Shown here in pieces: positions 1 to 36,418 of a DNA stretch of 57,439 bases. Source of the stretch: Acidobacteriota bacterium. GTDB taxonomy: Bacteria; Acidobacteriota; JAAYUB01. The notes under the pieces were generated by a model. It saw only the letters and a list, made by a program, of their open reading frames with translations. It searched no databases and was not told the origin of the DNA. The stretch spans positions 1 through 57,439 of the forward strand of contig JAFGRT010000102.1 of NCBI GenBank assembly GCA_016935015.1, read 5' to 3'. The position numbers and the translations under genes were made by a program. Each line of letters opens with the position of its first letter. Position 1 is the stretch's first letter.

Positions 1-81
1 AAAAAAAATATGGAAGACTTACCCAAGACTAATGATGATGCAACATGCATACGGCATAAATTGTTGACGGAGGAACAGGTT

Positions 82-1269
82 ATGATCAGCATCATTGGAA
101 TGGTTCTGGTTGCATTTTCTATGATCCTGTTCATGGGTTATTCCATTTTCATCATCGCCAACCGCCGGCGCAGCATCCGGTACGACGCGTTGCCGCCGGA
201 ACGGCTGCATCGCGTCAGCATCCTCAAACCGGTCAAGAACCCGGCCCCTGGCTTTGCAGAGAATCTGGAGTCCTTCTTTCGGCTGGATTATCCCGATTAT
301 GAAATCCTGTTTGGAGTGGAGTCCCCGACAGAGCCGGCCCTGGCCGCCATCACGCGGCTGATGACCAAATATCCGGACATCCCGGTGGTCATCGTTCTGA
401 CCGGTCACCAGAAACCGGCCAATCCGAAAGTGGACAACCTGATGAAAATGGAGCGCCTCGCGACCGGAGAGCACTACTGGGTCGCCGACGCGGACGTCCA
501 TGTGGAACGCGACACCCTCAAGAGACTGATGCACGAGTACATCCTTCATGATTCCAAGCTGATTTTCTCGCCCATCCGCGGCGCCGGCGCCGAAACACTC
601 GGCAGCCTGGCCGACAACACCCATTTCAGCTATTTCGTGTCCGGCAATGTCATCGCCGGCTGGCAATTGTTCCGCCAGCAGATCACCGTCGGTAAATCCA
701 TGTTTCTGGAACGCCGCACGCTGGAGGAAAAATTCGGCGGCTTCGCTTATTTCCTGGACTTTCTGGCTGAGGACTACGTAATGGGTGAAACCTATGTCAA
801 AGCCGGCCTCCCGGTTTCCACCAACTGCACCTGGGTCACAGCCACCAACCGGCGGGGCACCCTCACGGCGTTTTACTCCCGCATGGCCCGCTGGTCGGTG
901 CTACGGTTCAACCTGAAGAAAATATACTACTTTTCCGAAATCCTGTTCCTGAATCCCCTGGTGATGAGCCTGTTGCTGCTGGTGCCCTTTTCCCCCCACG
1001 GCGGGTGGTGGATGCTGGGTGTGTTTGGGACGAAATTGTCCCTGGAATTCATCAATTTTCTGATTCTTCAACCCGCCGATAGAGTTCGGAGCCGCACGTG
1101 GCTGCTCTTTCCCCTGGCGGTGCTCCTCAAGGATATCCTGATTTTCGCGGCCTATCTCACACCGCTGTTCACCGACAAGGTCAATTGGCGGGGCCGCCAG
1201 ATTGTTGTGGGCAAAATGACCCGCATCGGGGCGGAAACGGCCATTCCCCTGCAGGAGCAGTTGAACTAG
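82..1269 (+). CDS. Family 21 glycosyltransferase (ceramide glucosyltransferase/HpnI-like)
   Basis: This 395-residue membrane glycosyltransferase probably moves a sugar from a nucleotide sugar onto a lipid acceptor at the inner membrane. An N-terminal membrane helix (about residues 3-27) precedes a GT-A domain with D136-A-D138, the E230-D231 pair and the RMARW motif at 267-271. These match the D1-D2-D3-(Q/R)xxRW pattern of ceramide glucosyltransferases and HpnI. Two or three C-terminal helices follow (about 285-375). The ATG at 82 was chosen over an upstream in-frame ATG at 10 because GGAGG at 69-73 sits 8 bases before it. The next gene starts 1 base after the stop, so the two are surely co-transcribed. 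The lipid acceptor cannot be read from sequence. Confidence 0.85.
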   Translation: MISIIGMVLVAFSMILFMGYSIFIIANRRRSIRYDALPPERLHRVSILKPVKNPAPGFAENLESFFRLDYPDYEILFGVESPTEPALAAITRLMTKYPDIPVVIVLTGHQKPANPKVDNLMKMERLATGEHYWVADADVHVERDTLKRLMHEYILHDSKLIFSPIRGAGAETLGSLADNTHFSYFVSGNVIAGWQLFRQQITVGKSMFLERRTLEEKFGGFAYFLDFLAEDYVMGETYVKAGLPVSTNCTWVTATNRRGTLTAFYSRMARWSVLRFNLKKIYYFSEILFLNPLVMSLLLLVPFSPHGGWWMLGVFGTKLSLEFINFLILQPADRVRSRTWLLFPLAVLLKDILIFAAYLTPLFTDKVNWRGRQIVVGKMTRIGAETAIPLQEQLN

Positions 1270-1270
1270 C

Positions 1271-2671
1271 GTGCAATCAGCATCCCTGACCGACCTATCC
1301 AACCGGGAGTCACCGCCCGAAATGCCCTCCGCAGCGGAGGGGGCCTGGGTGGTAGCCGTCCACATGGGTCTGGGTCACCTCCGCGCCGCCCACGGACTGC
1401 AGAATCTTGCCCATGGCCGACTCATCGTTTACGGCGATGACGACGAGTTTTGCCCCGCTCCGGAGCGACGCCTCTGGAAGCGTACCAAGCGGTTGTACTA
1501 TTTCCTGTCGCGGGCCATCGAATTCCCTCTGATCGGCAAGGCCCTGTTCGGCTTTCTCAACAAGATGCTCATGATCCCGCCCTTTTATCCCAACCGTGAT
1601 CTATCGCGCCCTTCCTGGTCGGTGCGTCTCATGACCTCCATGATCCGCGACTTCGGCCTGGGGGCGACCCTCATCCGGCGGATCAAGGAGTCGGGCCGGC
1701 CGTCGATCAGCACCTTCTACGCCACCGCCCTGGCCATCGATCGCCTGGTGGAGCAGAAAAAGGACAATTACCTGGTGATCACCGACACGGACCTGAACCG
1801 GATCTGGGTGCCCGAAGAACCGGAGCGCAGCACCATCCGGTACCTGGCGCCCTGTGCCCAGGTCAAAAAGCGGCTCCGATCCTATGGCATTCCCAAACAG
1901 AACATCTACGTGACGGGCTTCCCCCTGCCTGTGTCCAATCTCGGCAGCCGGCAAGGTCTCGAAATCCTCAAGGAGGACCTTTTTTGTCGGCTGGTGCGCC
2001 TGGATCCGCGCCGCGAATTCCATCACAAGCACAAGAAGGAAGTACTGCGCTACCTGGAACGTACGAATTGGCCGGCGGCCGAAGAGGAAGGAATTTTCAG
2101 CCTGACCTTTGCCGTGGGCGGTGCCGGTGTACAAACCGGGCTGGTGCGCCAGATCCTGAGCAGCCTGCGCGAAAAGATCAGTCAAAACCGGATCCGCGTT
2201 AACCTTTCGGCCGGGATCCGCACCGACGTACGGGATCGTTTCCTGGCCTATCTGGACGACACCGGCCTGACGCCCTACCTGGATGAACGGGTGCGGATTA
2301 TTTACCATGCCGATGCGATCCGCTTTTTCACCCTCTTCAACGAGGCCATGCGCACCACCGACGTCCTGTGGACCAAGCCCAGCGAGCTCTCCTTTTTCTG
2401 CGGCCTGGGCATTCCCATCCTCATCGCCCCGCACGTGGGGCACCAGGAAAAATGCAACGCCCGCTGGCTGCAGGAGATCCATGCCGGCCTGCGCCCACCG
2501 GGCGAGGCTCGCTATACCAACGAATGGCTCTTCGATCTGCGCAAGCGGGGCCGGCTGGCCGAAACCGCCTGGCAAGGCTTTCTGAATGCGCGCAAGCTGG
2601 GTGCCTATAAAATCGAGGAACTGGTCCGCTACGGCCGTTTTGAGGCGGGCAAAAAACCCCTGGAGAAATGA
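1271..2671 (+). CDS. GT28/MGDG-synthase-like glycosyltransferase (GT-B fold)
   Basis: This 466-residue protein resembles the monogalactosyldiacylglycerol synthase/MurG branch of GT-B glycosyltransferases, which glycosylate membrane lipids. Visible signs are an N-terminal H-M-G-L-G-H loop at 31-36, a central PCAQVKKRLRSYGIP segment (194-208) followed by VTGFP, a GGAG loop at 283-286, TKPSE at 368-372 and GHQEKCNARWL near 390-400. The last two match the nucleotide-sugar-binding KPSE and Q-x3-NA-x-L regions of the family. The start is uncertain: the GTG at 1271 has AGGAG 13 bases upstream, and an ATG at 1322 is a possible alternative that keeps the catalytic loop. It sits between a family 21 glycosyltransferase and a phosphoesterase, 4 bases before the latter. 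Confidence 0.72.
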   Translation: MQSASLTDLSNRESPPEMPSAAEGAWVVAVHMGLGHLRAAHGLQNLAHGRLIVYGDDDEFCPAPERRLWKRTKRLYYFLSRAIEFPLIGKALFGFLNKMLMIPPFYPNRDLSRPSWSVRLMTSMIRDFGLGATLIRRIKESGRPSISTFYATALAIDRLVEQKKDNYLVITDTDLNRIWVPEEPERSTIRYLAPCAQVKKRLRSYGIPKQNIYVTGFPLPVSNLGSRQGLEILKEDLFCRLVRLDPRREFHHKHKKEVLRYLERTNWPAAEEEGIFSLTFAVGGAGVQTGLVRQILSSLREKISQNRIRVNLSAGIRTDVRDRFLAYLDDTGLTPYLDERVRIIYHADAIRFFTLFNEAMRTTDVLWTKPSELSFFCGLGIPILIAPHVGHQEKCNARWLQEIHAGLRPPGEARYTNEWLFDLRKRGRLAETAWQGFLNARKLGAYKIEELVRYGRFEAGKKPLEK

Positions 2672-2675
2672 ACCG

Positions 2676-3425
2676 ATGAATATCCTGGTGATATCCGACT
2701 TGCATATCGGTCCGGAAGACCGTTATGATAGCTTCGGCTGGAGCAGCCGCGAGTTTATCACCACGTTGGATCTCCTGCGGGAGGAACACGAGATCGACCG
2801 GGTCGTGCTCAATGGCGACGTGTTCGAGTTATACCGTTACCACTACCTCGACATCATGGCCAACCGACCCGACCTGATCCGTTATTTCAAGGATCCGGCG
2901 ACCGTTTACATCCGGGGCAACCATGATTTTGCCAACGATTTCGCACAGGATCATCTGCTGATCCGGAACCGGGCCGGGAAAACGATCTTTATCGAACACG
3001 GTCACAACGCCGATTTCATCAACGGCACGCGCCTGGGGCGGATCATCGGGCTGTTTTCTTTTAAAATTCTCAAGTTGCTGGTGCGGAATGAATTTTTCCA
3101 TCGCCATTACCACCGTTTCCTGGAAAAAGACAGCCAGATCAATCATATCCCCCGGCGCTACAATTCCTATCCATATCTCAAGTACGCGCTCCATCGGTTG
3201 AAAGAATTCGACGTGGTGATCCTGGGACATACGCACAAAATGGAAATCCACAAAACGTACTACCTGAATCAGAAAAAGATCTACCTGAATACCGGCTCCT
3301 GCTCGCTGGGCCGATTCCAGGGCATTCTGCTGAACACGGAAACGCTGGAGTACGACATCATCAATACCCATCCCACGCAGCTGCGGCTGGTGAAAGGTAT
3401 CGCCGATGAGCCAGTTGCCGTCTGA
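2676..3425 (+). CDS. Calcineurin-like metallophosphoesterase (LpxH-like)
   Basis: This 249-residue cytoplasmic or membrane-associated metallophosphoesterase has the full metal-binding set. It shows DLHIG near residues 8-12, NGDVFEL (about 47-53), RGNHDF (about 78-83), EHGHNAD (about 106-112) and GHTHKME (about 185-191). The order and spacing fit the UDP-2,3-diacylglucosamine hydrolase (LpxH)/YbbF branch. A role in cleaving a lipid-linked or nucleotide-linked pyrophosphate is inferred from its place between lipid glycosyltransferases and a HAD phosphatase. The ATG at 2676 follows GGAGA at 2662-2666 and lies 4 bases after the previous stop. An earlier in-frame ATG at 2586 would overlap the previous gene by 86 bases and was not used. 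Confidence 0.8.
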   Translation: MNILVISDLHIGPEDRYDSFGWSSREFITTLDLLREEHEIDRVVLNGDVFELYRYHYLDIMANRPDLIRYFKDPATVYIRGNHDFANDFAQDHLLIRNRAGKTIFIEHGHNADFINGTRLGRIIGLFSFKILKLLVRNEFFHRHYHRFLEKDSQINHIPRRYNSYPYLKYALHRLKEFDVVILGHTHKMEIHKTYYLNQKKIYLNTGSCSLGRFQGILLNTETLEYDIINTHPTQLRLVKGIADEPVAV

Positions 3426-4422
3426 GTCCAATTGGACATCGGATAATCGGAAACGCATTAACCTCCTCTTGCAGGAAATCACATCAATGGACCGAACCGT
3501 CGGACATCCCCAACCGGTGGCCCTGGTGGATTTCGATCACACCACCATACAGGGCGACCTGGCCGAGGCTTTCCTGGACGCCTGTCTCGTCACGGAGCGC
3601 GTGCCCCGGCCGCCGGCGGGCGACTGGCGGCGCAGCAGCCGCTTTCTGACGGCCGAGGCGGCGGAGCGTCTCAACGCCCTCAGCCGTCACGCGGGTCTGT
3701 CGGATGCCACCCTGCCGACCCGACGTCATCCGGAACTGGCCGAAGAGATCATGTGTATCTATTTCCAGTGGCGGACCACCGCCGATGCGCCGGCTTTCAC
3801 TGGTTATGACCCGGACTACATCCAGCCGGCCTATGCCTGGAGCAGCCAGTTGTTCAGCGGCTACACCCCTCACCAGATCCGCACTCTGGCCCGGCAGGTC
3901 ATCGGCGAACGACTGGCGGCCGGCCGAAACGAATTCTCACCCTATGGCCGCCCCTGGGGCATCCCCGGCTGGTTGCGCATCCAGCCCAAGACATTGGCCC
4001 TGCTGCAAATTTTGAAACAGGCGGGTGTCGACATCTGGCTGGTCTCTTCCACCATGGAGTTGCTGATCCGCACCTTCGCCGAGTATCTGGCGGTGCCCCT
4101 CTGTGGAATTATCGGTTGCCGGTTGGCCACGGACATGGGCGGACGTCTCACGCCGGAACCGGCCCACTGGCTGGAAGAGGGCTCCGTTCACCAGCCCATC
4201 ATGCCCTTCAAGCGCGGCAAGGCCTATTTTATCCGGCAGGAAATCATCGCCGGGGAGAGCGCCGTGCCCGTCATCGGCATTGGCGACTCGCTGAATGATT
4301 TTTACATGCTGAAGGAATGCCGGGGCTTACGGATCATCCTCGGCCGGCGAGATCCGGAACTCCAGGCCGCCGCCGCCCGGGACGGCGCCGACAACTGGCT
4401 GGTGGAGGCCGTGGACGGGTGA
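3406..4422 (+). CDS. HAD-superfamily phosphatase (SerB/PSPase-like)
   Basis: This is a haloacid-dehalogenase-type phosphatase of up to 338 residues. It shows motif I VDFDHTT (nucleophile D42, acid D44 when counted from 3406), motif II VSSTME, the conserved Lys in RGKAYF and motif IV GIGDSLND. The long cap between motifs I and II suits the phosphoserine phosphatase-like C1 cap group. Two starts are possible: the ATG at 3406, preceded by AAAGG and overlapping the previous gene by 20 bases, or the ATG at 3487, preceded by AGGA. The shorter form (311 residues) puts the nucleophile at the usual distance from the N terminus. It closes the four-gene glycolipid-like operon and probably removes a phosphate from an intermediate. 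The substrate is unknown. Confidence 0.75.
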   Translation: MSQLPSESNWTSDNRKRINLLLQEITSMDRTVGHPQPVALVDFDHTTIQGDLAEAFLDACLVTERVPRPPAGDWRRSSRFLTAEAAERLNALSRHAGLSDATLPTRRHPELAEEIMCIYFQWRTTADAPAFTGYDPDYIQPAYAWSSQLFSGYTPHQIRTLARQVIGERLAAGRNEFSPYGRPWGIPGWLRIQPKTLALLQILKQAGVDIWLVSSTMELLIRTFAEYLAVPLCGIIGCRLATDMGGRLTPEPAHWLEEGSVHQPIMPFKRGKAYFIRQEIIAGESAVPVIGIGDSLNDFYMLKECRGLRIILGRRDPELQAAAARDGADNWLVEAVDG

Positions 4423-4562: not shown

Positions 4563-7298
4563 ATGAGCCCGACAATGCGCATCACAGGCGGCATCATGAT
4601 CTGGCTGATCGTCTTCGGCCATTGGGGGATCAGCGACCCAGCGGTCTGTCCAGCCGGGGAGCCGGCTGAGACGGCGACAGACAGTCCGCCGCCAGCGACC
4701 GTCGTATCCCCGGCGGCAGCGGATACGGACGCTGTCCGACGCCTCATGGACGATATCCGGCCGCTGATGGAACCGAACCATTGGCCTTTCGCGGCCGCCT
4801 GCCTGGAACGGCCGGACATCGCCCGCCTGATCCGCGCCGATTTTTCCCGCATGTCCACCATTTGGCGACGCATCTCCCGGGCGGCTACCATCGGTACCGG
4901 TTCCACCTTTCTCATCCTGCAGGAAGATGCCGTGGCCAGTGTGTTCTGCGCCCGGCCGGAGGCGGTGGCGGACATGGTAGCCATCACCGGTCGGCATGCC
5001 TTTCATGCCCTGGTGTTGTTGCGTGATCCAGTCCTGGCCGAACAGTTCACTGCCCGGCCCGATCTTTTCACCCGCCGCCTCCACCGGATGGTGGCGGCGG
5101 CGACCCCGAACGTACGGGAAGTGCTGCATGCCTGCCAGAACCCCCTCCTGCGCCCGCTCCTGACCGCGCAGCCGGCCGAAATCCTCCGTCTGGTGGAATG
5201 CGCCGGGGAGACGGCACCGGCCGCCCTGGCGGCGCTCTGCCAACCGGAACTGCAGGATGCCTTCCATCGGAATCCGTCCGAGACCGTGACCCGCCTGTGC
5301 CGTCTGCCGCACGCCGCCAATTTCCTGGGCGAAAATGTGTGGCGCCTGATGAGGTCCCCGCCCCTGGCCGCGCTGCTCCTGCAGGCGCCGGAGACGATGG
5401 ACCTGCGGCTAAACCGGTTGGACCGGGAAATGGACGGCCGTGGGGCCGAAGCGTGTATCGCCTTGGGGAACCCGTCGCTGGGCAAATGGCTGGTCGCCAA
5501 TCCCGATGCTTGCCTCGGGGCGTTGCGCCAATTGACCGATATCGCCGGCCTGGACGCGCCCGAGTTGATGTCCCTGCTGGCTCACGAGTCCGTCGGTGCG
5601 TCCCTGGTGGCCGATCCGCCGGAGTTTATTGAACGGGTCCGACGGCTGAGCCGGGCCGCGGGAATGGATGCCGATACCGCCTTCACCGCCCTGGCCGCGC
5701 CCGAAATTGCTCCGTTGCTGGTGAGCCATCCTTCTGAATGCCTGGCTCTGGCCGAGGAGGTGGGGCGGGCGGCGGGAGCGGCGTTTGATGCGCTGCGAAA
5801 TCCCCTTCTGAATGAATCCTTTCGTCGCGATCCCGCTGCCGTGACCGACGGATTGATCCAGATCCGACGGGTGAGTGAAGATCACACCGCCGCAGTATTT
5901 GAATGGTTGGCGGCCGCCGAACCGGCCCGGCGCTTCCTGCAGGACCGACAAGGACTGCTATACGCCCTGACCCTGCTGCATCAGGCGCTCGGGCCCCGCA
6001 GCGGCGACGTGATCCGTTCACTCGACAATGCGCAGCTGACCCCTTTTTTCCTGGACAATCCGCGGCCGGCGGTCTATCGGTGGCAACGGATCGCCCACCG
6101 GGCGGGTGACTACGCATCGGTGGCGCTGGGCATCCTGGCCGAACCCGAGCTGGCGGAGCTGTTCATTGCCGATCCGGACCGGCTATACGACTGGATCAGC
6201 CGTATCGTCAAAGGTGCCGGCGCCGGACCGGCATTGCAGTATCTGGCGGAGACAAGCGGACGGGAGTTGTGGCGGTGCGAACCGGCCGTCTACCTCCAGC
6301 TGGCGACGGTCTTTCGTAACATGACTCCCGCCGCCGTGGAACTTCTGGTGTCGCCGCCCACTGCCCCCCTGATCCGGCGGGTTCTGGCGGCGGAGCCGTC
6401 ATTGACGACGGACGCCCTGTACGGCCTCGTCTTCTCCCTGCGCGAAGCCGCCCGGGACCCCCGTCTGGCCGGCAATGCCGCCGAAATGACGGAATTGTGC
6501 CGGCGCCTGTCTCCGGCGGAGATCCCCGCCCTGCCGCTCAGTTATCTCACCGATTCCGTCACCGCGGCCGGGACGACAGCCGAAAAAACCGCCCTGCTCA
6601 AAGATATGGCCCGCGTCTTCGACGAGTTGAATCTGGCCAATTTTCAACGCTACACCCCGGCCCTCCTGGAAAACGTATACGGTACCGTCACCCGGCCGCC
6701 CCGTGCGGACCAACGTCTGGCCCTCATCATGGTCAGCCGCAACGATCCCGGCGAGGCGTTCGCCGAGGACAAGCGCACCTATCGGTCCCTGCTGGACCAG
6801 GGGTACAACCTGATCATCTGCGAGTCGGACAGCGACCGGGAACTGGCCGAGCGCTTGTGTCACGGCGGCGTCCGCGGCGACAGTCCGCTGGCGCATACCC
6901 GCCGCCTCGACCTGCTTGTCATCGGCGGCCACGGCACCGCCGACGCCATCAACCTGGGGGCCGGCTGTGGATCCGGCTACGATCTCGATTTATCCGATTT
7001 CCGCTGGCTGCGGGATCTTCCCTGGCCGGACCTGCTGGCGCCGGACGCCGCGGTGCTGCTGTTCTCCTGCTTCACCGGGGCCGACGATGTCGCCGCCCCG
7101 CGCAAATATTCTCCGGCCGGGGGTGAACATGATTTCGCCAACATCATGGAGATGTTCGCCCGAGTGACGGAACGGACGGTCTTCGCGCCGCGCCTCGCCA
7201 CCGGTGTCGGATGGCTCGATTTTGGTCCGGATGGAAATGTCCGGCAGGTTCACTACTGGGATCTAGCGGCCGGCAACTGTTCACCGGGATCCCGCTAA
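4563..7298 (+). CDS. Secreted helical-repeat protein with C-terminal caspase-like (clan CD) domain
   Basis: I do not recognise this 911-residue protein as any named family. It begins with a hydrophobic signal segment (about residues 5-24). A Pro/Ala/Thr-rich linker follows, then about 15 degenerate repeats of 33-40 residues covering roughly residues 70-640. Each repeat follows a pattern like ALxxPxLaxlFxxxPxxxxxxLxRlxxxAG, which suggests an alpha solenoid. The C-terminal part (about 725-890) has VIGGHGT with His790 and LLFSCFTG with Cys836. Spacing and context resemble the His/Cys dyad of caspase/CHAT/gingipain-type peptidases. The ATG at 4563 follows AAGG at 4551-4554; the frame is open back to 4317 but would overlap the HAD gene. 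Export is inferred from the signal. Activity and partners are unknown. Confidence 0.72.
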   Translation: MSPTMRITGGIMIWLIVFGHWGISDPAVCPAGEPAETATDSPPPATVVSPAAADTDAVRRLMDDIRPLMEPNHWPFAAACLERPDIARLIRADFSRMSTIWRRISRAATIGTGSTFLILQEDAVASVFCARPEAVADMVAITGRHAFHALVLLRDPVLAEQFTARPDLFTRRLHRMVAAATPNVREVLHACQNPLLRPLLTAQPAEILRLVECAGETAPAALAALCQPELQDAFHRNPSETVTRLCRLPHAANFLGENVWRLMRSPPLAALLLQAPETMDLRLNRLDREMDGRGAEACIALGNPSLGKWLVANPDACLGALRQLTDIAGLDAPELMSLLAHESVGASLVADPPEFIERVRRLSRAAGMDADTAFTALAAPEIAPLLVSHPSECLALAEEVGRAAGAAFDALRNPLLNESFRRDPAAVTDGLIQIRRVSEDHTAAVFEWLAAAEPARRFLQDRQGLLYALTLLHQALGPRSGDVIRSLDNAQLTPFFLDNPRPAVYRWQRIAHRAGDYASVALGILAEPELAELFIADPDRLYDWISRIVKGAGAGPALQYLAETSGRELWRCEPAVYLQLATVFRNMTPAAVELLVSPPTAPLIRRVLAAEPSLTTDALYGLVFSLREAARDPRLAGNAAEMTELCRRLSPAEIPALPLSYLTDSVTAAGTTAEKTALLKDMARVFDELNLANFQRYTPALLENVYGTVTRPPRADQRLALIMVSRNDPGEAFAEDKRTYRSLLDQGYNLIICESDSDRELAERLCHGGVRGDSPLAHTRRLDLLVIGGHGTADAINLGAGCGSGYDLDLSDFRWLRDLPWPDLLAPDAAVLLFSCFTGADDVAAPRKYSPAGGEHDFANIMEMFARVTERTVFAPRLATGVGWLDFGPDGNVRQVHYWDLAAGNCSPGSR

Positions 7299-7556: not shown

Positions 7557-10500
7557 ATGAATGGTCGGATGGCGATCGTGGCCGTGCTGACCGGCCTTCT
7601 GATTCTGCCGTCGGCGGTATTCGCCGGAATCTGGACCAGCAACGGCCCCTACGGCGGCAGCATCCAACAGATCTGGGTCAATCCGGTTCATCCCAACAAA
7701 ATGCTGGCTGTGGTCCAGGACGGGGGATGCTTTCAAACCAAGAACTGGGGCACCAGCTGGACCGCCATCGGGGCTCTGCCGAGGACGATCGGCGCCCTGG
7801 CCGGTGATGATCGGGCCCGGCGCATCTATGTCAGCTCCGGTCTGAACTTCTATCGAAGCCTGGACCAGGCCGAAACCTGGGAATTGCTGGCCTCGCTCCC
7901 TTCCACAGCCACCTGCCTGGCCCTTCATCCGGGCAGCGACAAGATTCTCTATCTGGGTACACTTCAGGGCCTGAAAAAAAGCAGCGACGGCGGCAGCAGC
8001 TGGCAGGATGTCGGCTCTTCACTCCCCAAGGAGCAGATCGAATCGGTCGTCGTGGATCCCTTCAACAACAACATCGTATATGCCAGTGTCAACAACGAGG
8101 GCGTATTCAAGTCCTCCAACTCCGGCAGCTACTGGACAGCCATCTATGACAGTTCGGCCTGGTTTCCACAAGTGGCCTGTCATCCGCGCATCCGTAACCG
8201 GCTATACATGTGCACGTGGTCGCCCCCCTATTTCGCCGTCAGCACCAATGGCGGTACCAGCTGGGAAGCCGCGCCCAGCGGCTCCTTTTTCGATGATCTG
8301 GTGGCCGATCCCTTCATGGACAATGTTCTCTACACCAACAGTCTGCGTGGTTTGTTCAAGAGCATCGACTTCGGGGAAACCTGGGAAAAGATCCTGTCGG
8401 TGGAGGGACATGCCGTTGCCGTCGATCCATCGGAATCCGGGATTCTCTATGCCGGAACCCTGGCGGGCGTGCTTCGCAGCAGTGACGGCGGAGCCACTTG
8501 GTTCCCGGCGACCGCCGGCATCAACGAAGTGGACAAGTGCATTGCTGTCGACCCCGGCAACCCCGGCACGGTCTACGTGGGGGACGAAGCCAACAATATT
8601 TTCCGGAGTACGGACGGCGGCGTCACCTGGACCATGCTCCCCTTCGACCATGGCTCGAACGCCGTTGCGTCCCTTTTGGTATATCCGAACGATCCGGACG
8701 TCTTGCTGGCCACCACCAATGGCTACCTCTATCGGAGCGCCGATGGTGGCTGGACCTGGGACGACGTCCTGAGCGGCTATATTTACGCCACCGCCGTCGA
8801 ACCGGTTCCGCCCTACAAGATCTATGCCTGTTCCGGCTGGCCCTACTGGAGTTACGCCTTCACGGGAATTCACACCAGCACCGACGGCGGCAAGACTTGG
8901 CAATACCTGGGCCTGGAGGGCATCAACATCACCAATCTGGCCATCGATCCCGCCAATCCGAAACAGCTGTTCGCCGGCGGCGACGACGGCCTGTACCGGA
9001 GCGAGAACGGCGGCTCAGCCTGGTCCCCGCTCAATCTGGGTGTTTCCGAGCCGAAAGTGGACTGCCTGGTCATCGATCCCCGGAATCCCCAGATCCTGTA
9101 CGCCGGCGTCCGCAACCAGGGCGTCTACCGCTCTTCCAACAGCGGGAATAGCTGGCTTCAGCGGAACACCGGCCTGAACGATCTGCGGGTGGAAAGCCTG
9201 GCCGTGGACCCCGAAACATCCACGACGATCTATGCCGGAACGTATTCCGACGGACTCTATATCAGCGGAAACAGCGGTCAGAGCTGGAGCCTGGCCAGCC
9301 CGATCCTGAACGATATGCAAATATGGGCGTTGCAGTTCGATGCCGGACCGCCCAAGCGGCTCTATGCCGGCACCAATTACGGACTGCGCGTCAACACCAT
9401 CACCGACGACCCGGCCGTCATGGTGGACCACCGCTCGAATCAGGTGGGGAGCGTCAACAAAAATTCCCCCTCACAGCTTCTGCCGGCCACCTACCTGACC
9501 CTGGGGCTGCTGCCCGACACGTTTCCCAATGCCTCTTTCAACGAACCGGTACTCATCGAAATGATGCTGCCGCAGGGGACTCGGCTCAGCCAGACCCTGG
9601 CCGACGGCGTCTTCTCCACCAAGGGGGAAAATCCGTTGCTGAATCAAAAAACCCCTCCGCTGGCACTGTCCGAATACATGTTCAATCCGGCCTCCCAGCG
9701 ATATGAACCGTTGGACGACACCGCGGCTCCGGCTGAAATCGACGAGCGGGCGGTGGAGCTGTTTCGCTACGTGGCCGGGGAGAATGCCATCTGGCTCCGG
9801 GTGAACGTCAGCACCACTGAATTCCAACCTGGTTCGCCGGACCGTTTCCTGGGCGTCACCATCGGCCTGGGCGGAGGCGTATGGCCGCCCAACGAGGCCA
9901 GCAACTGGGGCTCGGACGGCGTTCACCGTCAGGCCAACACCCAGTTTTTCGCCGATGTCCGCAACTACGATTTCGCCACGGCGGGGTACCGGCTGACGGT
10001 GAGCCTGCGCGCGCTTTACCAACAGACGGGCCAGCTGGTGGGCACGGAATTCCAGCCTTCCGAGATTACCCTGTTCAACCTGGATCCCGGCCTGGAAAAC
10101 GACAAATATGTCAGCTCTCCTGTCGGTCCGTCCATCAAGGATTTCGACACCGCCGACCTGAACCAGGACGGCTATGAGGATATGGTCAGCGTCGACGGCG
10201 AGAATGAATGGATTACCTGGGTCCTGGGCCAGCCGGACGGCAGTTTCGGCACCGTCGAACAGCTGAACGTGCCGGGCATCATTCCCGTCACCGTGGATCT
10301 GATGGATTTCACCGGACCGGGAAGCAAACCGGACGGGCGTCCCGAACTGGTTTTCAGCAGCCTATCCGGAACCATTTACTATATGTACTGGCCTTCCGTC
10401 TGGAGCAAAGGATCTGCCGCCGGCGAGATGATCCCCGTCCAAGTGACCAAGCTGGCCGTTGCCCCTTCCGCCACCATGGTGCAGGATGTGAACCATGATA

Positions 10501-12479
10501 CCCATGCCGATATCATTTATACCGATGCCAGCGGTGAACAGCTCGTCGTCCTGTTCGGCAGCACGTTCTCCAGTTCGGCCGTCTATGCCTGCGGCCATGG
10601 CCCGGCGGCCATCACCGCCGGCGATTTCGACGGTGACAGCCGTCTGGACCTGGCGGTGGCCAACCGCGACTCCGCTTCCGTCTCTGTCTATCGGAACAAC
10701 GGTAGCGGTTTCGATGCGGCGGAATACGCCGCCGGCGGCAGCGAGCCGGTGGACATCAAGGCAGCGGATTTCAACCGGGACGGCCGGGCCGATCTGGTGG
10801 TCGCCCTGGCCGACGACAGGGCCATCTCCATCATGCCGGCCGGCGCCGGCGGCAGCTTCGACAAAGCGGCCATTCAGAAGATTTATTTTCTGAACGCCCC
10901 CTCGGCCGTGCTGGCGGAAAATTTCGACGGCCAGCACGGCGCCGACGTGTTGGTGGGCTTCCGCGACTTCTACAAGCTGGCCCTGTGCGTCAGCCAGGCC
11001 GACGGCCGTCTGGCCTATGCCTACACCCTCAACACCCTGGGGGATGTGGAACTGGATTACGTCAACCATGCCACCCTCAACGAGGACAATATCCTGGCCG
11101 TGGGCGGCGGCACCGGCGCCGGCGGGGTTTCCTCGGTCACCGGGGTGGCCGCCCTGGGGGAAATGCCCATCAATCTCATCCATTTCCCCCGCAGTCGACA
11201 GCTTTCGTTCTCCGTCGTAAACATGGGCACCTCGGCCGCCCTGCTGAACCTGGAGCTGTATGAAGACGCCGGGACCCTGACCGAGGCAGTGACTACTTCC
11301 ATCGGTCCGGGGCTCCAGTTTGCCCGCTACCTGACGGATCCGGCGCTGCTGGGCTCGGCGGCCGATGATCCGGAACGCTGGGTACGGGCGTTCCTGACCG
11401 AGGAGGATACGTATGGCCTGTGGCTGGGTAACGACGGCTCCACCCTCGATTACCTCGACGGCTTCCGATTGCCGGCCGCCGGTGACGCCTCTTCCTCGTT
11501 CGTACTGCCCGAAGTATGGAACGAACCGGGCGAATATACCGAAATCATTCTCCTGAATCCGTCGCAGAAGCAGGCCGCCGTGAACATCTCCCTGATGCGG
11601 GATGGAACCGTCCGAGCCGTATCGGCCCGGGTGATTGCCGGTCGGGGCCGGATTCGCCTCGACCTGGAAACGGTATTCCCCAGCGCCGCGCAGGAAGATT
11701 ACGTGCAAGTCATCTCGGACCGGCCTGTCATCGGTCTGGAGCTCTTCGGTGACAGTGGTCGCCTGGCTGGCCTGGAGGGTATGGATACCACCCGAGGCGG
11801 TGATCTGCTCTATGGGCCTCACGTGGCCATCGGCGATCTGGGCCTGGCCTTTCGGTCGGACCTGACCCTCGTCAATGCGGGCGATCAGGCGGCCACCCTC
11901 TCCCTGGATCTGGTGGACGATGCCGGGGATCTCGTCGGCTTCATCAACGACCTCACTCTCAATGCCGGGAGTAAATTGACCACCGATCTGGCCGACTTGT
12001 TCGCATTGTCCATGCCCGTGTCGGGTTATCTGGTGGTGGATCCGCATGGTGCCGAAGGGATCGTCGGCGCCATCACCTTCCAGGGAGTGGGGGACGACCG
12101 TTATGTTTCATCCCTGCCCCTGTTGCGATCGGCAGCGGATCACTTCCTGGTGGGCCACCTGGCCACGGGACTGCAGGGCGGCACCAACTACTTCACCGGC
12201 GTGGCCGTCTTGAATCCCGATGCCGAAGCCAAGCAGGTGCGGGTTTCCGCGTACGATCAGAACGGCATCCTGCTGGATTCCCAAAGCAGCACTATCCCCG
12301 GCAACCGCCGGGACATCTATCTGCTGCACGACCGCTTGACCGGACTGACGGGTAACTTCGGCGGTTATCTGCTCGTGGACAATGAATCGACGACGGTGGG
12401 GAGCCTGCTGGTGTTTGTGCTCTTCGGCGATGAGGCCTACAATTTCCTGAGCGCCGTGCCGGCGGTGCCCCGGCAATAA
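7557..12479 (+). CDS. Large secreted beta-propeller protein (BNR/sortilin-type and FG-GAP repeats)
   Basis: This 1640-residue exported protein begins with a clear signal peptide (cleavage probably after A22 or A23, at AVFA). Residues 25-620 carry repeated SSDGGxxW/STDGGxTW Asp-box (BNR) units alternating with IAVDPxNPxxxYAG strands, as in Ycf48/sortilin-like propellers. Residues about 860-1090 hold FG-GAP/VCBS calcium-binding repeats: DLNQDGYED, DVNHDTHAD, DFDGDSRLD and DFNRDGRAD. The last 450 residues repeat a beta-rich module found at the C terminus of large secreted proteins of environmental bacteria. The ATG at 7557 has GGGAGGA six bases upstream; the frame is open back to 7488. It is probably a surface or extracellular binding protein. 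No catalytic motif is visible. Confidence 0.85.
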   Translation: MNGRMAIVAVLTGLLILPSAVFAGIWTSNGPYGGSIQQIWVNPVHPNKMLAVVQDGGCFQTKNWGTSWTAIGALPRTIGALAGDDRARRIYVSSGLNFYRSLDQAETWELLASLPSTATCLALHPGSDKILYLGTLQGLKKSSDGGSSWQDVGSSLPKEQIESVVVDPFNNNIVYASVNNEGVFKSSNSGSYWTAIYDSSAWFPQVACHPRIRNRLYMCTWSPPYFAVSTNGGTSWEAAPSGSFFDDLVADPFMDNVLYTNSLRGLFKSIDFGETWEKILSVEGHAVAVDPSESGILYAGTLAGVLRSSDGGATWFPATAGINEVDKCIAVDPGNPGTVYVGDEANNIFRSTDGGVTWTMLPFDHGSNAVASLLVYPNDPDVLLATTNGYLYRSADGGWTWDDVLSGYIYATAVEPVPPYKIYACSGWPYWSYAFTGIHTSTDGGKTWQYLGLEGINITNLAIDPANPKQLFAGGDDGLYRSENGGSAWSPLNLGVSEPKVDCLVIDPRNPQILYAGVRNQGVYRSSNSGNSWLQRNTGLNDLRVESLAVDPETSTTIYAGTYSDGLYISGNSGQSWSLASPILNDMQIWALQFDAGPPKRLYAGTNYGLRVNTITDDPAVMVDHRSNQVGSVNKNSPSQLLPATYLTLGLLPDTFPNASFNEPVLIEMMLPQGTRLSQTLADGVFSTKGENPLLNQKTPPLALSEYMFNPASQRYEPLDDTAAPAEIDERAVELFRYVAGENAIWLRVNVSTTEFQPGSPDRFLGVTIGLGGGVWPPNEASNWGSDGVHRQANTQFFADVRNYDFATAGYRLTVSLRALYQQTGQLVGTEFQPSEITLFNLDPGLENDKYVSSPVGPSIKDFDTADLNQDGYEDMVSVDGENEWITWVLGQPDGSFGTVEQLNVPGIIPVTVDLMDFTGPGSKPDGRPELVFSSLSGTIYYMYWPSVWSKGSAAGEMIPVQVTKLAVAPSATMVQDVNHDTHADIIYTDASGEQLVVLFGSTFSSSAVYACGHGPAAITAGDFDGDSRLDLAVANRDSASVSVYRNNGSGFDAAEYAAGGSEPVDIKAADFNRDGRADLVVALADDRAISIMPAGAGGSFDKAAIQKIYFLNAPSAVLAENFDGQHGADVLVGFRDFYKLALCVSQADGRLAYAYTLNTLGDVELDYVNHATLNEDNILAVGGGTGAGGVSSVTGVAALGEMPINLIHFPRSRQLSFSVVNMGTSAALLNLELYEDAGTLTEAVTTSIGPGLQFARYLTDPALLGSAADDPERWVRAFLTEEDTYGLWLGNDGSTLDYLDGFRLPAAGDASSSFVLPEVWNEPGEYTEIILLNPSQKQAAVNISLMRDGTVRAVSARVIAGRGRIRLDLETVFPSAAQEDYVQVISDRPVIGLELFGDSGRLAGLEGMDTTRGGDLLYGPHVAIGDLGLAFRSDLTLVNAGDQAATLSLDLVDDAGDLVGFINDLTLNAGSKLTTDLADLFALSMPVSGYLVVDPHGAEGIVGAITFQGVGDDRYVSSLPLLRSAADHFLVGHLATGLQGGTNYFTGVAVLNPDAEAKQVRVSAYDQNGILLDSQSSTIPGNRRDIYLLHDRLTGLTGNFGGYLLVDNESTTVGSLLVFVLFGDEAYNFLSAVPAVPRQ

Positions 12480-12548
12480 TCATGTCTTGTGGAAAGGATG
12501 CCGCAACCAGGCCGTCAACAGGGCGGCGGCGAATCAGGGATCGCGGAC

Positions 12549-14243
12549 ATGCCGGATGAACGGAAGGGAGTATTTCAGACGACATTGACGTCGCTGTTTC
12601 GGCGGCGCGCCCCGATCCCCACACCCGGCGGCGGCGCGACCGCCGCGCCTCGCCAGCACAGCGTGCGGCGGCTCAAGGAACTGCTGGGGGAGGACTACCA
12701 TTTTGAGGCCTTTCTCGGCCGCGGCGGGTTTGCCGCCGTGTTCAAGGTCCGGCAGCTGCGGCTGGATCGACTCGAAGCCCTCAAAGTGTTGCTGGAAACC
12801 CACGACGAGGACCCGGGATTCGCCGAGCGATTCGTCCAGGAGGCCAAGGTGGCGGCCTCCCTGGATCATCCCCACATCGTCAAAGTGTATGACTTCGGCC
12901 AAGCTGAAGGGATATTTTGGTACAGCATGCAGTTTATCGATGGGCCGACGCTCTCGTCGGAATTGCGCGCCGGCGGGCCGCTGCCAGAGCGTTCGGCCGT
13001 CCGGTTGGTCCTGCCGCTCCTGGACGCCCTGGAATACAGCCATCGCCGCGGCGTGGTTCACCGGGATATCAAGCCGGGCAACATCATCCTCGACGCCCAG
13101 GCCCGCCCTTACCTGATGGATTTCGGCATCGCCAAGTCCATGGACAGCGTGCTGAAGACCCGCACCGGTCTGTTGCTGGGCACCCCGGCCTATATCGCCC
13201 CCGAGCAGGCATCGCGGCAGGTGGTGGACGGCCGGGCCGACCTCTACGCCCTGGGGGTGACACTCTACGAAATGATCACTGGGCATTATCCTTTTCCCAT
13301 GGACGATCCCGTCCAGAGCGTGGTGTTGCGACTCACGGAAAAACCCGACAAGCCATCCCGCTGGTTGCCCGACATCCACGCCGAACTGGAGCGAATCATT
13401 CTCAAGGCGCTGGAACGCGACAAGGGGCGGCGCCATGCCGATGCCGCGGCCCTGCGGGCGGATCTGCTCCGTTTCGTCGGCGATGCCGATTCCACTGCAA
13501 GATTTGATCTGCGTTCGCTGAAGGAGGCCAAATCCGTATCGCCCTTCGCCCCCGAAGCCGATGTGCTGGCACCAACCTACATGGAAATGTCGGCGGCGGC
13601 GACCGGTCCGACTTTGCCACGTCCCTTCGGCCGTCGGGGACGCCGGCTGGTTCTGGCGGCAGCCCTGGTGACCCTGGCGCTGGGGAGCGCGGCCCTCGTG
13701 AAGTTCTGGCCTAGGGTCGAAGCGCCGCCGCCGGTGGAGCGGCTGTTCGAACGACCGCCGGATACGGCGACGGATCCAGTCCGAGAACAGTTAAGCAAAC
13801 CGGGTGAGCTGGCGAGGGAAATGGAATCAAATCAGGCCTCGGTCGGGGGCGTTGAGGAAAAAGAACATGCCGCCCCGAAGGCGGAACAGGTTGAAACCGC
13901 CGGGCCACTTTCCACTTCGTCCCCGGTGCGGGCGACGACACCCATCGAACCGATCGTTCGGCGGCCCGTCCAGCCGCCGCGCCTGCTGGAGCAGGCCCCG
14001 GTCCAGCTCGACGGGGAGGATGCGGCCCTATGCCTGAACCAGATCATCAACTTTTCCGTGGTGATCGGCGAGGACGGCCGGGTGAAAGCGGTCCGCGCGA
14101 TCTCCGCCGGGCATCCACCCGTCTGCCTGACCGCCGCGGAGGAGGCCGTCCGGCGCTACATTTTTTCACCGGCCCTGGATGTGGCGGGAAAACCGGTGGA
14201 GTCGACCATCGCCGTGGCGGTGGAAATTACGGGAGGTAACTAA
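12549..14243 (+). CDS. Membrane Ser/Thr protein kinase with periplasmic TonB-C-like domain
   Basis: This 564-residue protein has a PknB-type kinase domain (about 50-310), a membrane helix (about 364-386), a Pro/Glu-rich linker and a C-terminal domain (about 485-564). The kinase motifs are complete: GRGGFAAVF glycine loop (57-65), catalytic Lys79 in ALKVL, HRDIKPGNI (171-179), DFG at 191-193, and APE. The tail contains INFSVVIGEDGRVKAVRAI and RRYIFSPAL, which resembles the TonB C-terminal/AgmX energy-transducer fold and would lie in the periplasm. The ATG at 12549 follows AGGGA at 12536-12540; a GTG at 12489 lacks a site. The stop overlaps the start of the OmpA-like lipoprotein, so the two are translationally coupled and probably work together at the envelope. 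Confidence 0.85.
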   Translation: MPDERKGVFQTTLTSLFRRRAPIPTPGGGATAAPRQHSVRRLKELLGEDYHFEAFLGRGGFAAVFKVRQLRLDRLEALKVLLETHDEDPGFAERFVQEAKVAASLDHPHIVKVYDFGQAEGIFWYSMQFIDGPTLSSELRAGGPLPERSAVRLVLPLLDALEYSHRRGVVHRDIKPGNIILDAQARPYLMDFGIAKSMDSVLKTRTGLLLGTPAYIAPEQASRQVVDGRADLYALGVTLYEMITGHYPFPMDDPVQSVVLRLTEKPDKPSRWLPDIHAELERIILKALERDKGRRHADAAALRADLLRFVGDADSTARFDLRSLKEAKSVSPFAPEADVLAPTYMEMSAAATGPTLPRPFGRRGRRLVLAAALVTLALGSAALVKFWPRVEAPPPVERLFERPPDTATDPVREQLSKPGELAREMESNQASVGGVEEKEHAAPKAEQVETAGPLSTSSPVRATTPIEPIVRRPVQPPRLLEQAPVQLDGEDAALCLNQIINFSVVIGEDGRVKAVRAISAGHPPVCLTAAEEAVRRYIFSPALDVAGKPVESTIAVAVEITGGN

Positions 14244-22927: not shown

Positions 22928-25060
22928 ATGAAGAACCGAGTTTCATTCGCAGGTTTCTTGTGCGGATTGATACTGGCCGGCGGCGCCTCGTTGGCCCAGG
23001 TGAACCCCGACCTGGCGGCCGCGTACCTGGCCCATGACCCGGCCGGTGACCTGGCCGTCGGCCGGGCCCTGACGGTGGAGGCCGTCTACACCCATGCTTC
23101 GGATGTGGCCGTCATCCGCACCTGCGAGCTGCGGCTGGACCATCCCCAGTACCCGGTGGGCATGACCCTGGACCGTGCCACGGGCCAGGTCAGCCTCTGG
23201 TCCGGCGACGGCGGGGCCCATTTTCTCTACCCGCCGGGGGTTGTCCTCATCGCCTCCGACACCGTTTCGCTGACGGTGCGCTGGTCGGTGTTGCCCCGGG
23301 CCAACTGGCCGACGGTGACGAGCGGGGCCGGTTTTTCCATTCGCGCCGGTGACGACGGCGGCGGTTTCGGGGCGTGGAGCTCCGCCGGGCTGGACCTGGC
23401 GTTTGAACCCGCCGAATGCGGCGCCACTGTCATTATCCACGGCCGCAACAGCGACGTGCCCCAGTGGGCGCTGACCATGGGCCAGGGGGTGGCCGCGCGG
23501 CGGGGCACCGGCCGGGTCTGGCGGCTGGATCCGGCCAGCGTCACCTTCGGCGCGGCGCCCGTGGCCGTCAGTGGCGATCCCGACACCGCCGGCGAGGCCA
23601 GCGAGGAAGTATTCGTCATGGACTGGACCAGCGAGTCCAACGAGATGTGCGTGCCTGGCTTCAGCGAGGCGGCGGCCGATGCTTTCGTGGCCGCCCTTGT
23701 CCGGCACCAGCAGGCCCACCCGGTGCCGCATTTTTTGGACCGCCTCCACCTCATCGGTCACAGCCGCGGTCCGGTGGTGGCCAGCGAAATGGCCGAGCGG
23801 CTGCTGGCGCTGGCGGCGGGCGGCGAGACCTTCGCTGTGGACGGCCCCGTGGCCGATTGGGTGGATGTGACGGCGCTGGATCCCCATCCCGTGTGGGGCG
23901 ACCAGGGTTTTCTCATCTCCTGCAATCAGGACGTGGACCGGGTCAACAGCAGCGTCGCCGAGCGGGACCAGGTGCAGGCCTGGACCGGCCTGGCCTACGC
24001 CGACAACTACTACCAGCCGGTGAGCACCAGCCCCCACCTGTTCAATCCCGACGGCATGTGGCTCCATGCCTGCATCAACCGCAACCTCGACGCCACCATC
24101 CCCGCCTCGGCCGGCGACAGCAGCCCCGTGGAGCACAGCGACGTCCACGCCTGGTATTACGGGACCATCAACCCCGACGCCACCGACGACGAACTGCTCA
24201 AGATGATCAACGAGGAACGGGCCTGGCGCCGCGATGCCCTGGCCGGCAAGGTCTACGGAACGGGGCCGGCCGACAAGATCGCCATCGATCGCTCCGGCTG
24301 GTACTTCGACGGGCGGGGCATCGCCGCCGGCTACGGCCACGCGCCGGCGGGCGGCGGGCTGATGCACCGTATGGTGAACCCGCTTACCGGCCTGGCCTGG
24401 GGCACGGGTGAATACTGGACGGATCCGGCGACGCCGCCGGCGACTGAATGGGATCCCGCGCTGGACAACGTGTTCAACGGCACCCTGACCTACGTGGACG
24501 GCAGCGCCACCATCCCCGGCTGGGAGCGGCAGGGGGGCGGCGGCAGCGGCACGGTAGTATCCGGCCGCCTGCGCCTGGGTGGCGCCAACCTCAGCCGCAC
24601 CCATAACTTCCTGCACATCCCCGACGGCGCGGCCTGGCTGGCATTCGACCTGGCCGTCACCACGGCCGGCGGTGACACCCTGACGGTGACCCTGAACCGA
24701 GGCCTGCCCGACGCGGCTGTCATCGCCGCCCTGGCGCTGGCCGACGCCATCCCTGGCGGGCATCAGGTGGCTGTACCGGCCACGTTCCGGGGAAAACCGG
24801 CTACCATCGATTTCCGCATCGGCGGCGGCGACCTCAGCCTGGACGACATCCGCCTGGTAGTGACCGCCGGCCTGCCGGGCGATCTGAACCAGGACGGCGT
24901 GCTGGACTCCCTGGATGTGGCCCTGCTGGCCGGTTACCTGGCCGGCAATGTGGCCGCCGGCGAGGGCGCCTTCATCGCCCCGGCCGGTATGGCCGACGTC
25001 AACGACGATGGGGTCATCGACACCGCCGACCTGGTGACCCTGCTTATCCTCACCACATAG
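22928..25060 (+). CDS. Secreted alpha/beta hydrolase with C-terminal dockerin
   Basis: This 710-residue exported protein has a signal peptide (cleavage near residue 24). After a beta-rich N-terminal domain, a lipase-like alpha/beta hydrolase starts at VIIHGRNS. It carries the nucleophile elbow GHSRG with Ser279, an Asp candidate in VTALDPHP, and a possible His in PVEHSDVHAWYYG. A jelly-roll-like domain follows (about 510-640). The last 60 residues are a type I dockerin with two calcium loops, GDLNQDGVLDSLDVALL and ADVNDDGVIDTADLVTLL. The ATG has AAGG about seven bases upstream. Probably an extracellular esterase or lipase; no cohesin protein is seen in the window, so the docking partner is unknown. 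Confidence 0.8.
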   Translation: MKNRVSFAGFLCGLILAGGASLAQVNPDLAAAYLAHDPAGDLAVGRALTVEAVYTHASDVAVIRTCELRLDHPQYPVGMTLDRATGQVSLWSGDGGAHFLYPPGVVLIASDTVSLTVRWSVLPRANWPTVTSGAGFSIRAGDDGGGFGAWSSAGLDLAFEPAECGATVIIHGRNSDVPQWALTMGQGVAARRGTGRVWRLDPASVTFGAAPVAVSGDPDTAGEASEEVFVMDWTSESNEMCVPGFSEAAADAFVAALVRHQQAHPVPHFLDRLHLIGHSRGPVVASEMAERLLALAAGGETFAVDGPVADWVDVTALDPHPVWGDQGFLISCNQDVDRVNSSVAERDQVQAWTGLAYADNYYQPVSTSPHLFNPDGMWLHACINRNLDATIPASAGDSSPVEHSDVHAWYYGTINPDATDDELLKMINEERAWRRDALAGKVYGTGPADKIAIDRSGWYFDGRGIAAGYGHAPAGGGLMHRMVNPLTGLAWGTGEYWTDPATPPATEWDPALDNVFNGTLTYVDGSATIPGWERQGGGGSGTVVSGRLRLGGANLSRTHNFLHIPDGAAWLAFDLAVTTAGGDTLTVTLNRGLPDAAVIAALALADAIPGGHQVAVPATFRGKPATIDFRIGGGDLSLDDIRLVVTAGLPGDLNQDGVLDSLDVALLAGYLAGNVAAGEGAFIAPAGMADVNDDGVIDTADLVTLLILTT

Positions 25061-34946: not shown

Positions 34947-35132
34947 ATGAGCAAATCCGTCCCTGTCAGTTTAGCCCCGGGAACCATATCGACGGAACCG
35001 CTCATCAAAAACAGGCGGTTCCGCCCCTTTTTTTGGAGTAGAATGAAAAGAGAGCGCCGGCCGCTGGATTTAGGTTTGGCCCTCACCCATGATTTCTGCA
35101 CGCCGCGATGGCAAGCAGGGAGTGACCGATGA
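34947..35132 (+). CDS. Possible 61-residue leader ORF
   Basis: An ATG at 34947 with GAGGA four bases upstream opens a 61-codon frame. Its TGA overlaps the ATG of the serine hydrolase (ATGA). The peptide is basic and rich in Arg and Pro, and I recognise no family. A terminator-like hairpin with seven Ts lies inside the frame. This layout would suit translational coupling or attenuation, but coding cannot be shown from one sequence. Confidence 0.3.
   Translation: MSKSVPVSLAPGTISTEPLIKNRRFRPFFWSRMKRERRPLDLGLALTHDFCTPRWQAGSDR
34993..35034 (+). terminator. Intrinsic terminator-like hairpin upstream of the serine hydrolase
   Basis: CGGAACCGC and GCGGTTCCG form a 9-base stem with a 13-base loop, followed by CCCC and seven Ts. 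It reads as a + strand terminator about 95 bases before the ATG at 35129. No + strand gene ends just before it, so it may be an attenuator or the end of a small RNA. Confidence 0.55.
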
Positions 35133-36418
35133 CTGCCCAATGGAAAATATCTCTCGGGATGCTGATGTTGCTGGTTTGGCTGGCTAGCGCCATGACGGGC
35201 CACTCCCTGGCCTGGGAATGGCCGCGTTCGAGCCCCGAGGAGCAGGGGCTGGACGGCGCGGTGATCCGAGGCTACGTCGGCGCCATCGCTGCTGGCGAAT
35301 ACGGCAGCATCCACAGCCTGCTCATCGTCCGCCACGGCCGGCTGGTCACCGAGGAATATTTTGGTTATTGGGGCGCCGATTCGCTACACCCGGTCTTTTC
35401 CGTCACCAAGAGCGTGACCTCAGCCCTGCTGGGCATTCTGCACGAACAGGCCTACTGGACGGATCTGGACAGCCGCCTGCTGGACTATTTTCCGGAATAT
35501 GACGATCTGGCCAACATGAGTCCGGCCAAGCGGGCCATCACCCTGCGGGACGTGTTGACCATGACGGCCGGTTTCCAGTGGAACGAGCTGTCGCTGGACT
35601 ACAGCAATCCCTTCAACGACGTTGTGCTCATGTCCCTCAGCGCCGACTGGTTGCGCTACGTCCTCGACAAGCCCATGACCGACAATCCCGGTGATAAATT
35701 CAACTACAACAGCGGCTGCACCATGCTGCTGGGCGGCATCATCCACCAGACCACCGGCTGGGAGGCCCGCCACCTGGTGTCACCCCTGCTCTTCGATTTT
35801 GTGGATATCGATGCGTATGAATGGTCCACCGGCGCCCAGGGCATCACCAATACCGGTTGGGGACTGTCCCTGCGGCCGCTGGACATGGCCAGTTTCGGCT
35901 ATCTCTACCTTCACAACGGCGCGCGCCGCGGCATGTCCGTCGTGCCTGCTGAATGGGTATACGACTCCCTCAGCGATCAGGTGGCGGCCCGGGAAGGGTC
36001 GCACTACGGCTACCAGTGGTGGGTGCTGCCGCTGGATCCGGCGGCACCCGACGCTCCGGCCCGGATCCGCACGGCCTGGGGTTACGGCGGGCAGTTCATC
36101 TTCGTGGTGCCCACCCTGGACATGGTCGTGGTCTCCACCGCCGGCGAATACAACTCCATCCAGAACGGCGCCGTCGATTTTATCCAGCATCTGCTGGCCG
36201 AGGCCGTTCTGGACCCGGCCGCCGCCAGTGGCGATGTGGATGACGACGGCTTTGTCACCGCTGCGGATCTGGCGCTGCTGCGCCGGAGCTGTGCCGAGCA
36301 GCCCGCGCTGCCCGTCACGCCCGCCGATGCCGTCGCCCGCGGCGACCGCAACGGCGACGGCCGCCTAGATATCATCGATTGCCTGCAGGTGCAGATCTGG
36401 CTCCGGGCCGACGATTGA
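35129..36418 (+). CDS. Secreted serine hydrolase (beta-lactamase/EstB-like) with dockerin
   Basis: This 429-residue exported protein has a signal peptide (about residues 6-28). Its hydrolase domain belongs to the class C beta-lactamase/6-aminohexanoate-dimer hydrolase group. It carries S91-V-T-K94 (nucleophile and base), FNYNSG with Tyr193, and GYGGQFIFV in place of the KTG box. This points to an esterase or amidase more than a beta-lactamase. The C terminus (about 365-429) is a dockerin with GDVDDDGFVTAADLALL and RGDRNGDGRLDIIDC loops. The second loop contains an extra Cys. AGGGAG precedes the ATG. It acts outside the cell; no cohesin is seen here. Confidence 0.82.
   Translation: MTAQWKISLGMLMLLVWLASAMTGHSLAWEWPRSSPEEQGLDGAVIRGYVGAIAAGEYGSIHSLLIVRHGRLVTEEYFGYWGADSLHPVFSVTKSVTSALLGILHEQAYWTDLDSRLLDYFPEYDDLANMSPAKRAITLRDVLTMTAGFQWNELSLDYSNPFNDVVLMSLSADWLRYVLDKPMTDNPGDKFNYNSGCTMLLGGIIHQTTGWEARHLVSPLLFDFVDIDAYEWSTGAQGITNTGWGLSLRPLDMASFGYLYLHNGARRGMSVVPAEWVYDSLSDQVAAREGSHYGYQWWVLPLDPAAPDAPARIRTAWGYGGQFIFVVPTLDMVVVSTAGEYNSIQNGAVDFIQHLLAEAVLDPAAASGDVDDDGFVTAADLALLRRSCAEQPALPVTPADAVARGDRNGDGRLDIIDCLQVQIWLRADD

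Follow-up and report, generated by a model that had tools for sequence, protein, structure and literature searches.

Which kind of enzyme is encoded by a gene that joins about 15 helical repeats to a domain with a caspase-like His/Cys pair, and where else does such a protein occur? These questions are raised by a 911-residue protein encoded in a stretch of bacterial DNA of 57,439 nucleotides, hereafter the window. The open reading frame runs exactly from an ATG at 4563 to a stop ending at 7298, and we regard it as coding because its codon-position GC (0.71/0.51/0.77) follows the same pattern as that of the neighbouring genes. A preliminary description had placed in it some 15 repeats followed by His790 and Cys836, a layout confirmed here by the reading frame, by comparison of the protein with itself and by the positions of the motifs (Table 1). 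The N-terminus (MSPTMRITGGIMIWLIVFGHWGISDPAVCPAG) is hydrophobic, with a 15-residue mean hydropathy of up to 1.7, and is followed by a Pro/Ala/Thr/Ser linker, while a full-length AF2 model places a helix at residues 3–21 with low confidence. From these features the segment looks like an export signal or a membrane anchor; no clean signal-peptidase site or lipobox is visible in it by reading.

Table 1. Coordinates of the features described (window positions, except where a locus is named)
Feature	Position	Strand	Basis
Whole gene, 911 aa: hydrophobic N-terminal segment, alpha-solenoid, C-terminal predicted clan CD (caspase-like) domain	4563..7298	+	ORF, codon bias, archaeal-only profile match
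Hydrophobic N-terminus, possible signal peptide or membrane anchor (residues 1–35)	4563..4667	+	Direct reading, hydropathy
Predicted alpha-solenoid, about 15 repeats, period 38, three helices each (about residues 73–630)	4779..6452	+	Shift-38 z = 8.7, AF2 helices, profile matches archaeal solenoids
FQRY linker motif (residues 694–697), just N-terminal to the protease domain	6642..6653	+	Alignment
Predicted caspase-like catalytic domain (about residues 713–900), order b1-a-b2-a-b3(HG)-b4(C)-a-b5	6699..7262	+	AF2 model, Foldseek
Predicted catalytic His790 codon (VIGGHGT)	6930..6932	+	Conserved in 41/41 rows
Predicted catalytic Cys836 codon (LLFSCFTG)	7068..7070	+	Conserved in 41/41 rows
Seven tandem solenoid-caspase paralogues, Micrarchaeota-type genome	L113:3229-17569	all one strand	

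Archaeal relatives and the catalytic domain

Searches with the single sequence in 60 and then 396 genomes of the same phylum returned no relative, no second copy was present in the protein's own genome, and none was found in viral contigs, plasmids or phages. We also used motif-guided query alignments containing artificial rows stripped of everything but the His and Cys motifs; such bait rows served solely to pick scan patterns and are no evidence in themselves, the archaeal loci being later confirmed with real sequences only. A scan of 84,980 bacterial and archaeal species genomes with one such alignment (A4) gave two loci, both archaeal, one from archaeon DeMMO3_13 (L066) and one from a Candidatus Micrarchaeota archaeon (L067). 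In their real sequences the whole C-terminal region, together with the upstream F.RY linker, can be aligned to the window protein. When a profile made from archaeal sequences only was searched against the 481 window ORFs of at least 60 aa and their reversals, the window protein was its sole match (E = 2.8e-33). The protein also carries the family pattern, a GHG..(I/V)xLG...SCxTG domain with the F.RY linker upstream, and on these sequence comparisons it belongs to an archaeal solenoid-caspase family. A signal-region match in genome G020 and a Neorhizobium match were both rejected as unsupported.

His790 and Cys836 lie 46 residues apart, each after a hydrophobic strand and within HG and [SA]C motifs, as in clan CD, and both are kept in all 41 homologue rows, a set that includes two duplicate pairs. 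Across 27 rows R30, D62, E88, H124, G125 and C170 are invariant (aligned-region numbering); in the FQRY linker the Arg is likewise invariant (27/27), with Phe and Tyr each kept in at least 90%. An AF2 model of the C-terminal 245 residues, computed from a six-row alignment, has a pLDDT of 73.9 and a pTM of 0.79. Searched with Foldseek against the PDB, it gave top matches that are nearly all clan CD, at modest TM-scores of 0.3–0.5; the best was Tce1 (PDB 9qpe, E = 3.7e-4), a putative T6SS cysteine protease of the DUF4347 type (PF14252), followed by the TcdB CPD, caspase-11, -1 and -2, legumain and PIG-K. Tce1 has itself been described with a predicted His/Cys dyad and aligned with TcdB (PMC13323088). 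Searching PDB chains with the family sequence profile placed a CHAT protein (0.0026) and the DUF4347 protein Tce1 (0.0037) at the top. The C-terminal domain is thus predicted to adopt the caspase-hemoglobinase fold, with a caspase-like sheet, and by its modelled fold and its dyad the window protein is a member of clan CD.

Curated families do not, as far as sequence models reach, claim the protein. The full sequence had no match in Pfam up to E = 10 and non-significant matches only in NCBIfam and the PDB, and PADLOC returned none. The C-terminal domain alone gave one sub-threshold Pfam match, to DUF4347 over the His-to-Cys stretch (E = 0.24 and 11.6 bits, the gathering score being 24.6 bits). 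DUF4347 is the sole Pfam family matched by many members, weakly in 16 of 27 with a best value of 5e-4; it differs from the window protein in lacking a solenoid of this type. The CHAT model (PF12770) failed to match the window protein and matched two of the 27 relatives (best 4e-4), no TPR match was found in the window protein, and the separase (C50) model matched neither the window protein nor any of the 27. The earlier view of the protein as clan CD, with His790 and Cys836 as its dyad, therefore holds in the modelled fold and in the conservation of both residues, whereas its label "metacaspase-like" proved too specific, the nearest families by sequence and structure being DUF4347 and CHAT. 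Metacaspases and orthocaspases (C14) do have GHG and DSCHSG motifs that resemble the GHG and SC[S/F]TG of the window family, and the domain model matches caspases by Foldseek, but Peptidase_C14 (PF00656) matches neither the window protein nor the 27 relatives, and we see no evidence of the C14 subunit arrangement in the window protein. Weak P0002 matches in a GHDLDLxNLxLFRDLP-like, PdxJ-like stretch between the motifs did not cover the His and were rejected as chance.

A 38-residue helical repeat shared with archaea

The repeats were assessed by self-comparison of residues 55–640 over all shifts between 20 and 59, with 300 shuffles as the background. This gave a single clear peak, at a shift of 38 residues (z = 8.7, the next-best shift reaching z = 3.1), which places the repetition far beyond chance. 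We delineated 15 repeats of 35–41 residues, and a profile built from 12 of them recovers 13 units in the window protein. The full-length AF2 model is helical throughout residues 55–710, with three helices per repeat and a local pLDDT of 80–93 at residues 60–240 and 390–540; its pTM of 0.40 is too low to place the solenoid relative to the protease. Neither Pfam nor NCBIfam contains a repeat model that fits the window protein, and Foldseek found no solved solenoid in the PDB significantly similar to the full-length model. Matches of the repeat profile to de novo beta-trefoils in the PDB were rejected as chance.

Over 396 genomes the window repeat profile found no relatives. Against the N-terminal parts of the archaeal members the same window-only profile gave a best E of 1.5e-17, with nine archaeal rows below 1e-4, the best of the shuffled decoys standing at 0.029; by this sequence comparison the N-terminal repeats are homologous between the window bacterium and the archaea. 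The match is weak or lacking in the more diverged archaeal members, from which we conclude that the solenoid evolves fast. One archaeal homologue passes the Pfam Arm_2 model (24.0 bits, cut-off 20.4). This pass, taken with the three-helix helical model and the lack of a solved counterpart, leads us to call the repeat ARM-like and as yet unmodelled, and, judged on the predicted structure, not to call it a new fold. Like ARM and HEAT repeats it is all-helical, and it shares with ARM the three helices per repeat, but the window repeats match no Pfam repeat model. The alpha-solenoid foreseen in the preliminary description is accordingly what the model predicts; of its suggestion that the repeat could be new, the lack of a curated repeat model stands, while the restriction to one protein is lost, since the repeat recurs in archaeal homologues.

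Distribution, tandem copies and origin

In the phylum of L067, the Micrarchaeota-type DPANN, the domain is present in 32 of 245 sampled genomes, and in the retrieved archaeal loci it almost always stands at the C terminus, after a long N-terminal region of helical repeats. One archaeal clade has larger multidomain versions, one of them with a HATPase_c domain; in this protein of 2183 residues (L134:4366-10914, genome G514) the caspase-like domain lies mid-protein, with the HATPase_c (GHKL) domain nearer the C terminus. An export signal is not evident in most archaeal homologues, and a few have lipobox-like or membrane N-termini (L122, L123, L124, L129). No conserved neighbour gene across the family loci points to a partner or a substrate.

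The 1.2 Mb archaeal genome G397 holds nine paralogues, of which seven make up a tandem array; in the tree its sampled copies all group in a single clade. Among these nine, all 36 pairs show higher identity in the protease half than in the solenoid half, with means of 52% and 31%. Such a contrast would be expected of a solenoid that determines specificity next to an unchanging enzyme; neutral drift, by which solenoids in many cases outpace enzymes in divergence, could contribute to it.

In the bacterial phylum a full match was found in the window genome only (1/392). Two proteins of about 190 residues in the same phylum (L107, L108) lack a solenoid and combine a minimal GHG...SC caspase-like domain with an N-terminus that resembles a signal; by sequence they look like distant relatives that carry this catalytic domain alone. 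The phylum has another divergent, clan CD-like protein (L065:928-2226, genome G074; 433 residues), which is exported-looking and carries VIMGHGS and VLLINCS. The contig around the window gene is bacterial, as judged by ORF reading, for instance from a ribosomal protein S2-like gene at 53659-54558. Patchy bacterial spread, taken together with rich archaeal diversity, suggests that the gene moved between archaea and bacteria; the tree, sampled from two phyla, has the window protein as a long branch outside any well-supported clade and gives neither direction nor date for such a transfer.

Possible role and genomic surroundings

Repeats, a conserved dyad and a predicted clan CD fold are found in the same architecture in a bacterium and in DPANN archaea. 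We consider it probable that the window protein is a cysteine peptidase of clan CD that its ARM-like alpha-solenoid regulates or aims, with cutting tied to a bound partner. The N-terminal solenoid would recognise a protein partner and would position, restrain or activate the C-terminal His790/Cys836 protease, which would then cut that partner or an associated substrate. We infer that the protein cleaves proteins and that its bacterial version works outside the cytoplasm; the solenoid would be the recognition or regulatory part by analogy with TPR-CHAT and separase. Craspase TPR-CHAT is an autoinhibited protease that is allosterically activated via a partner and is structurally like separase, which is in turn held inactive by its own partner (PMC9729208).

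The window protein is analogous to both and a member of neither. With TPR-CHAT (Csx29, Craspase) it shares an alpha-solenoid followed by a C-terminal caspase-like His/Cys protease, but it has 38-residue three-helix repeats in place of TPR and no gRAMP or CRISPR neighbours; it may work like TPR-CHAT despite failing the definition of that class. With separase (C50) it shares a large helical solenoid and a C-terminal clan CD protease, while being prokaryotic and much smaller, with no sequence match and no securin-like partner seen. In both known systems a helical solenoid and a caspase-like protease make a switch that ties cutting to recognition, and in the window protein the same plan is built from another type of repeat and a clan CD domain that is not yet classified, recurring in a phylum of small DPANN archaea and in an unrelated bacterium. 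We found no description of such a family, in DPANN or elsewhere, in the open-access literature searched; a paper that combines DPANN and caspase-like proteins (PMC10907252) concerns other systems. The family is a missing entry for protein-family databases and offers a handle on how gene-poor small archaea use many regulated proteases. We further propose, tentatively, that tandem duplication diversifies the recognition solenoid and keeps the enzyme, yielding a repertoire of proteases against host-cell, viral or surface proteins, and that the window protein would be the first to be described from a prokaryotic family of solenoid-guided clan CD proteases found in both Bacteria and DPANN archaea.

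Other explanations have to be weighed against a partner-directed peptidase. It is unlikely, though conceivable, that the enzyme trims surface or secreted proteins of its own cell, as the preliminary description suggested for surface proteins, with the solenoid holding exported clients in the periplasm or on the cell surface. Such a task would suit the hydrophobic N-terminus with its P/A/T/S linker, the lipobox-like or membrane N-termini of the four archaeal homologues named above, the small, exported-looking GHG/SC proteins L107 and L108, and the adjoining gene for a large exported BNR/FG-GAP repeat protein. It fits poorly with the archaeal homologues, most of which lack an evident export signal, and no cleavage site or substrate was found; moreover, the BNR family occurs in same-family relatives that are all without the protease, so that the pairing is not obligate. 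We regard as improbable a conflict or cell-death effector whose solenoid would sense a molecule of an invader or rival and set off proteolysis in the manner of TPR-CHAT or Craspase. PADLOC found nothing, no gasdermin, nuclease or CRISPR neighbour is conserved, and the bacterial copy is apparently exported, all of which weigh against an effector that the shared TPR-CHAT layout, the tandem copies with their variable solenoids and conserved protease half, and the patchy spread (32/245 archaeal against 1/392 bacterial genomes) would otherwise favour.

Little credence is given to the caspase-like fold being a binding module, a transamidase or a ligase, with the solenoid as a scaffold. The Foldseek matches do include non-hydrolytic clan CD proteins, namely the GPI-transamidase subunit PIG-K and asparaginyl ligases; the full conservation of both catalytic residues argues for catalysis, although transamidation would use the same His/Cys dyad. 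That HGT and SC motifs arose by chance in an unrelated protein and were misread as caspase-like could draw on the lack of a significant single-sequence match and on the weak PdxJ-like resemblance between the motifs, but with a dyad conserved in 100% of rows, a predicted fold and independent profile matches in the PDB to CHAT and DUF4347 its likelihood is negligible, and we rejected it on conservation and predicted fold.

The genes around the protease were also read. The BNR/sortilin-like and FG-GAP protein next downstream (7557-12479) has 23–27 matching stretches per same-family genome, none of these genomes carrying the solenoid-caspase protease, which indicates a big paralogous family; in a same-family genome its match lies among other genes than in the window and so offers no empty-site comparison. 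A further gene (12489-14243) encodes a protein kinase (Pfam Pkinase, 7e-45) whose C terminus is weakly TonB_C-like (22.9 bits, cut-off 24.6), an odd pairing. Just upstream (10-4422), glycosyltransferase family 21-like, MGDG-synthase-like, phosphoesterase-like (by reading) and HAD genes stand in a row and look like a glycolipid cluster, the HAD gene having no match in 19 relatives. Elsewhere in the window, two exported proteins (22928-25060 and 35129-36418) end, by reading, in dockerin-like calcium-loop repeats (GDLNQDGVLDSLDV, GDVDDDGFVTAADL).
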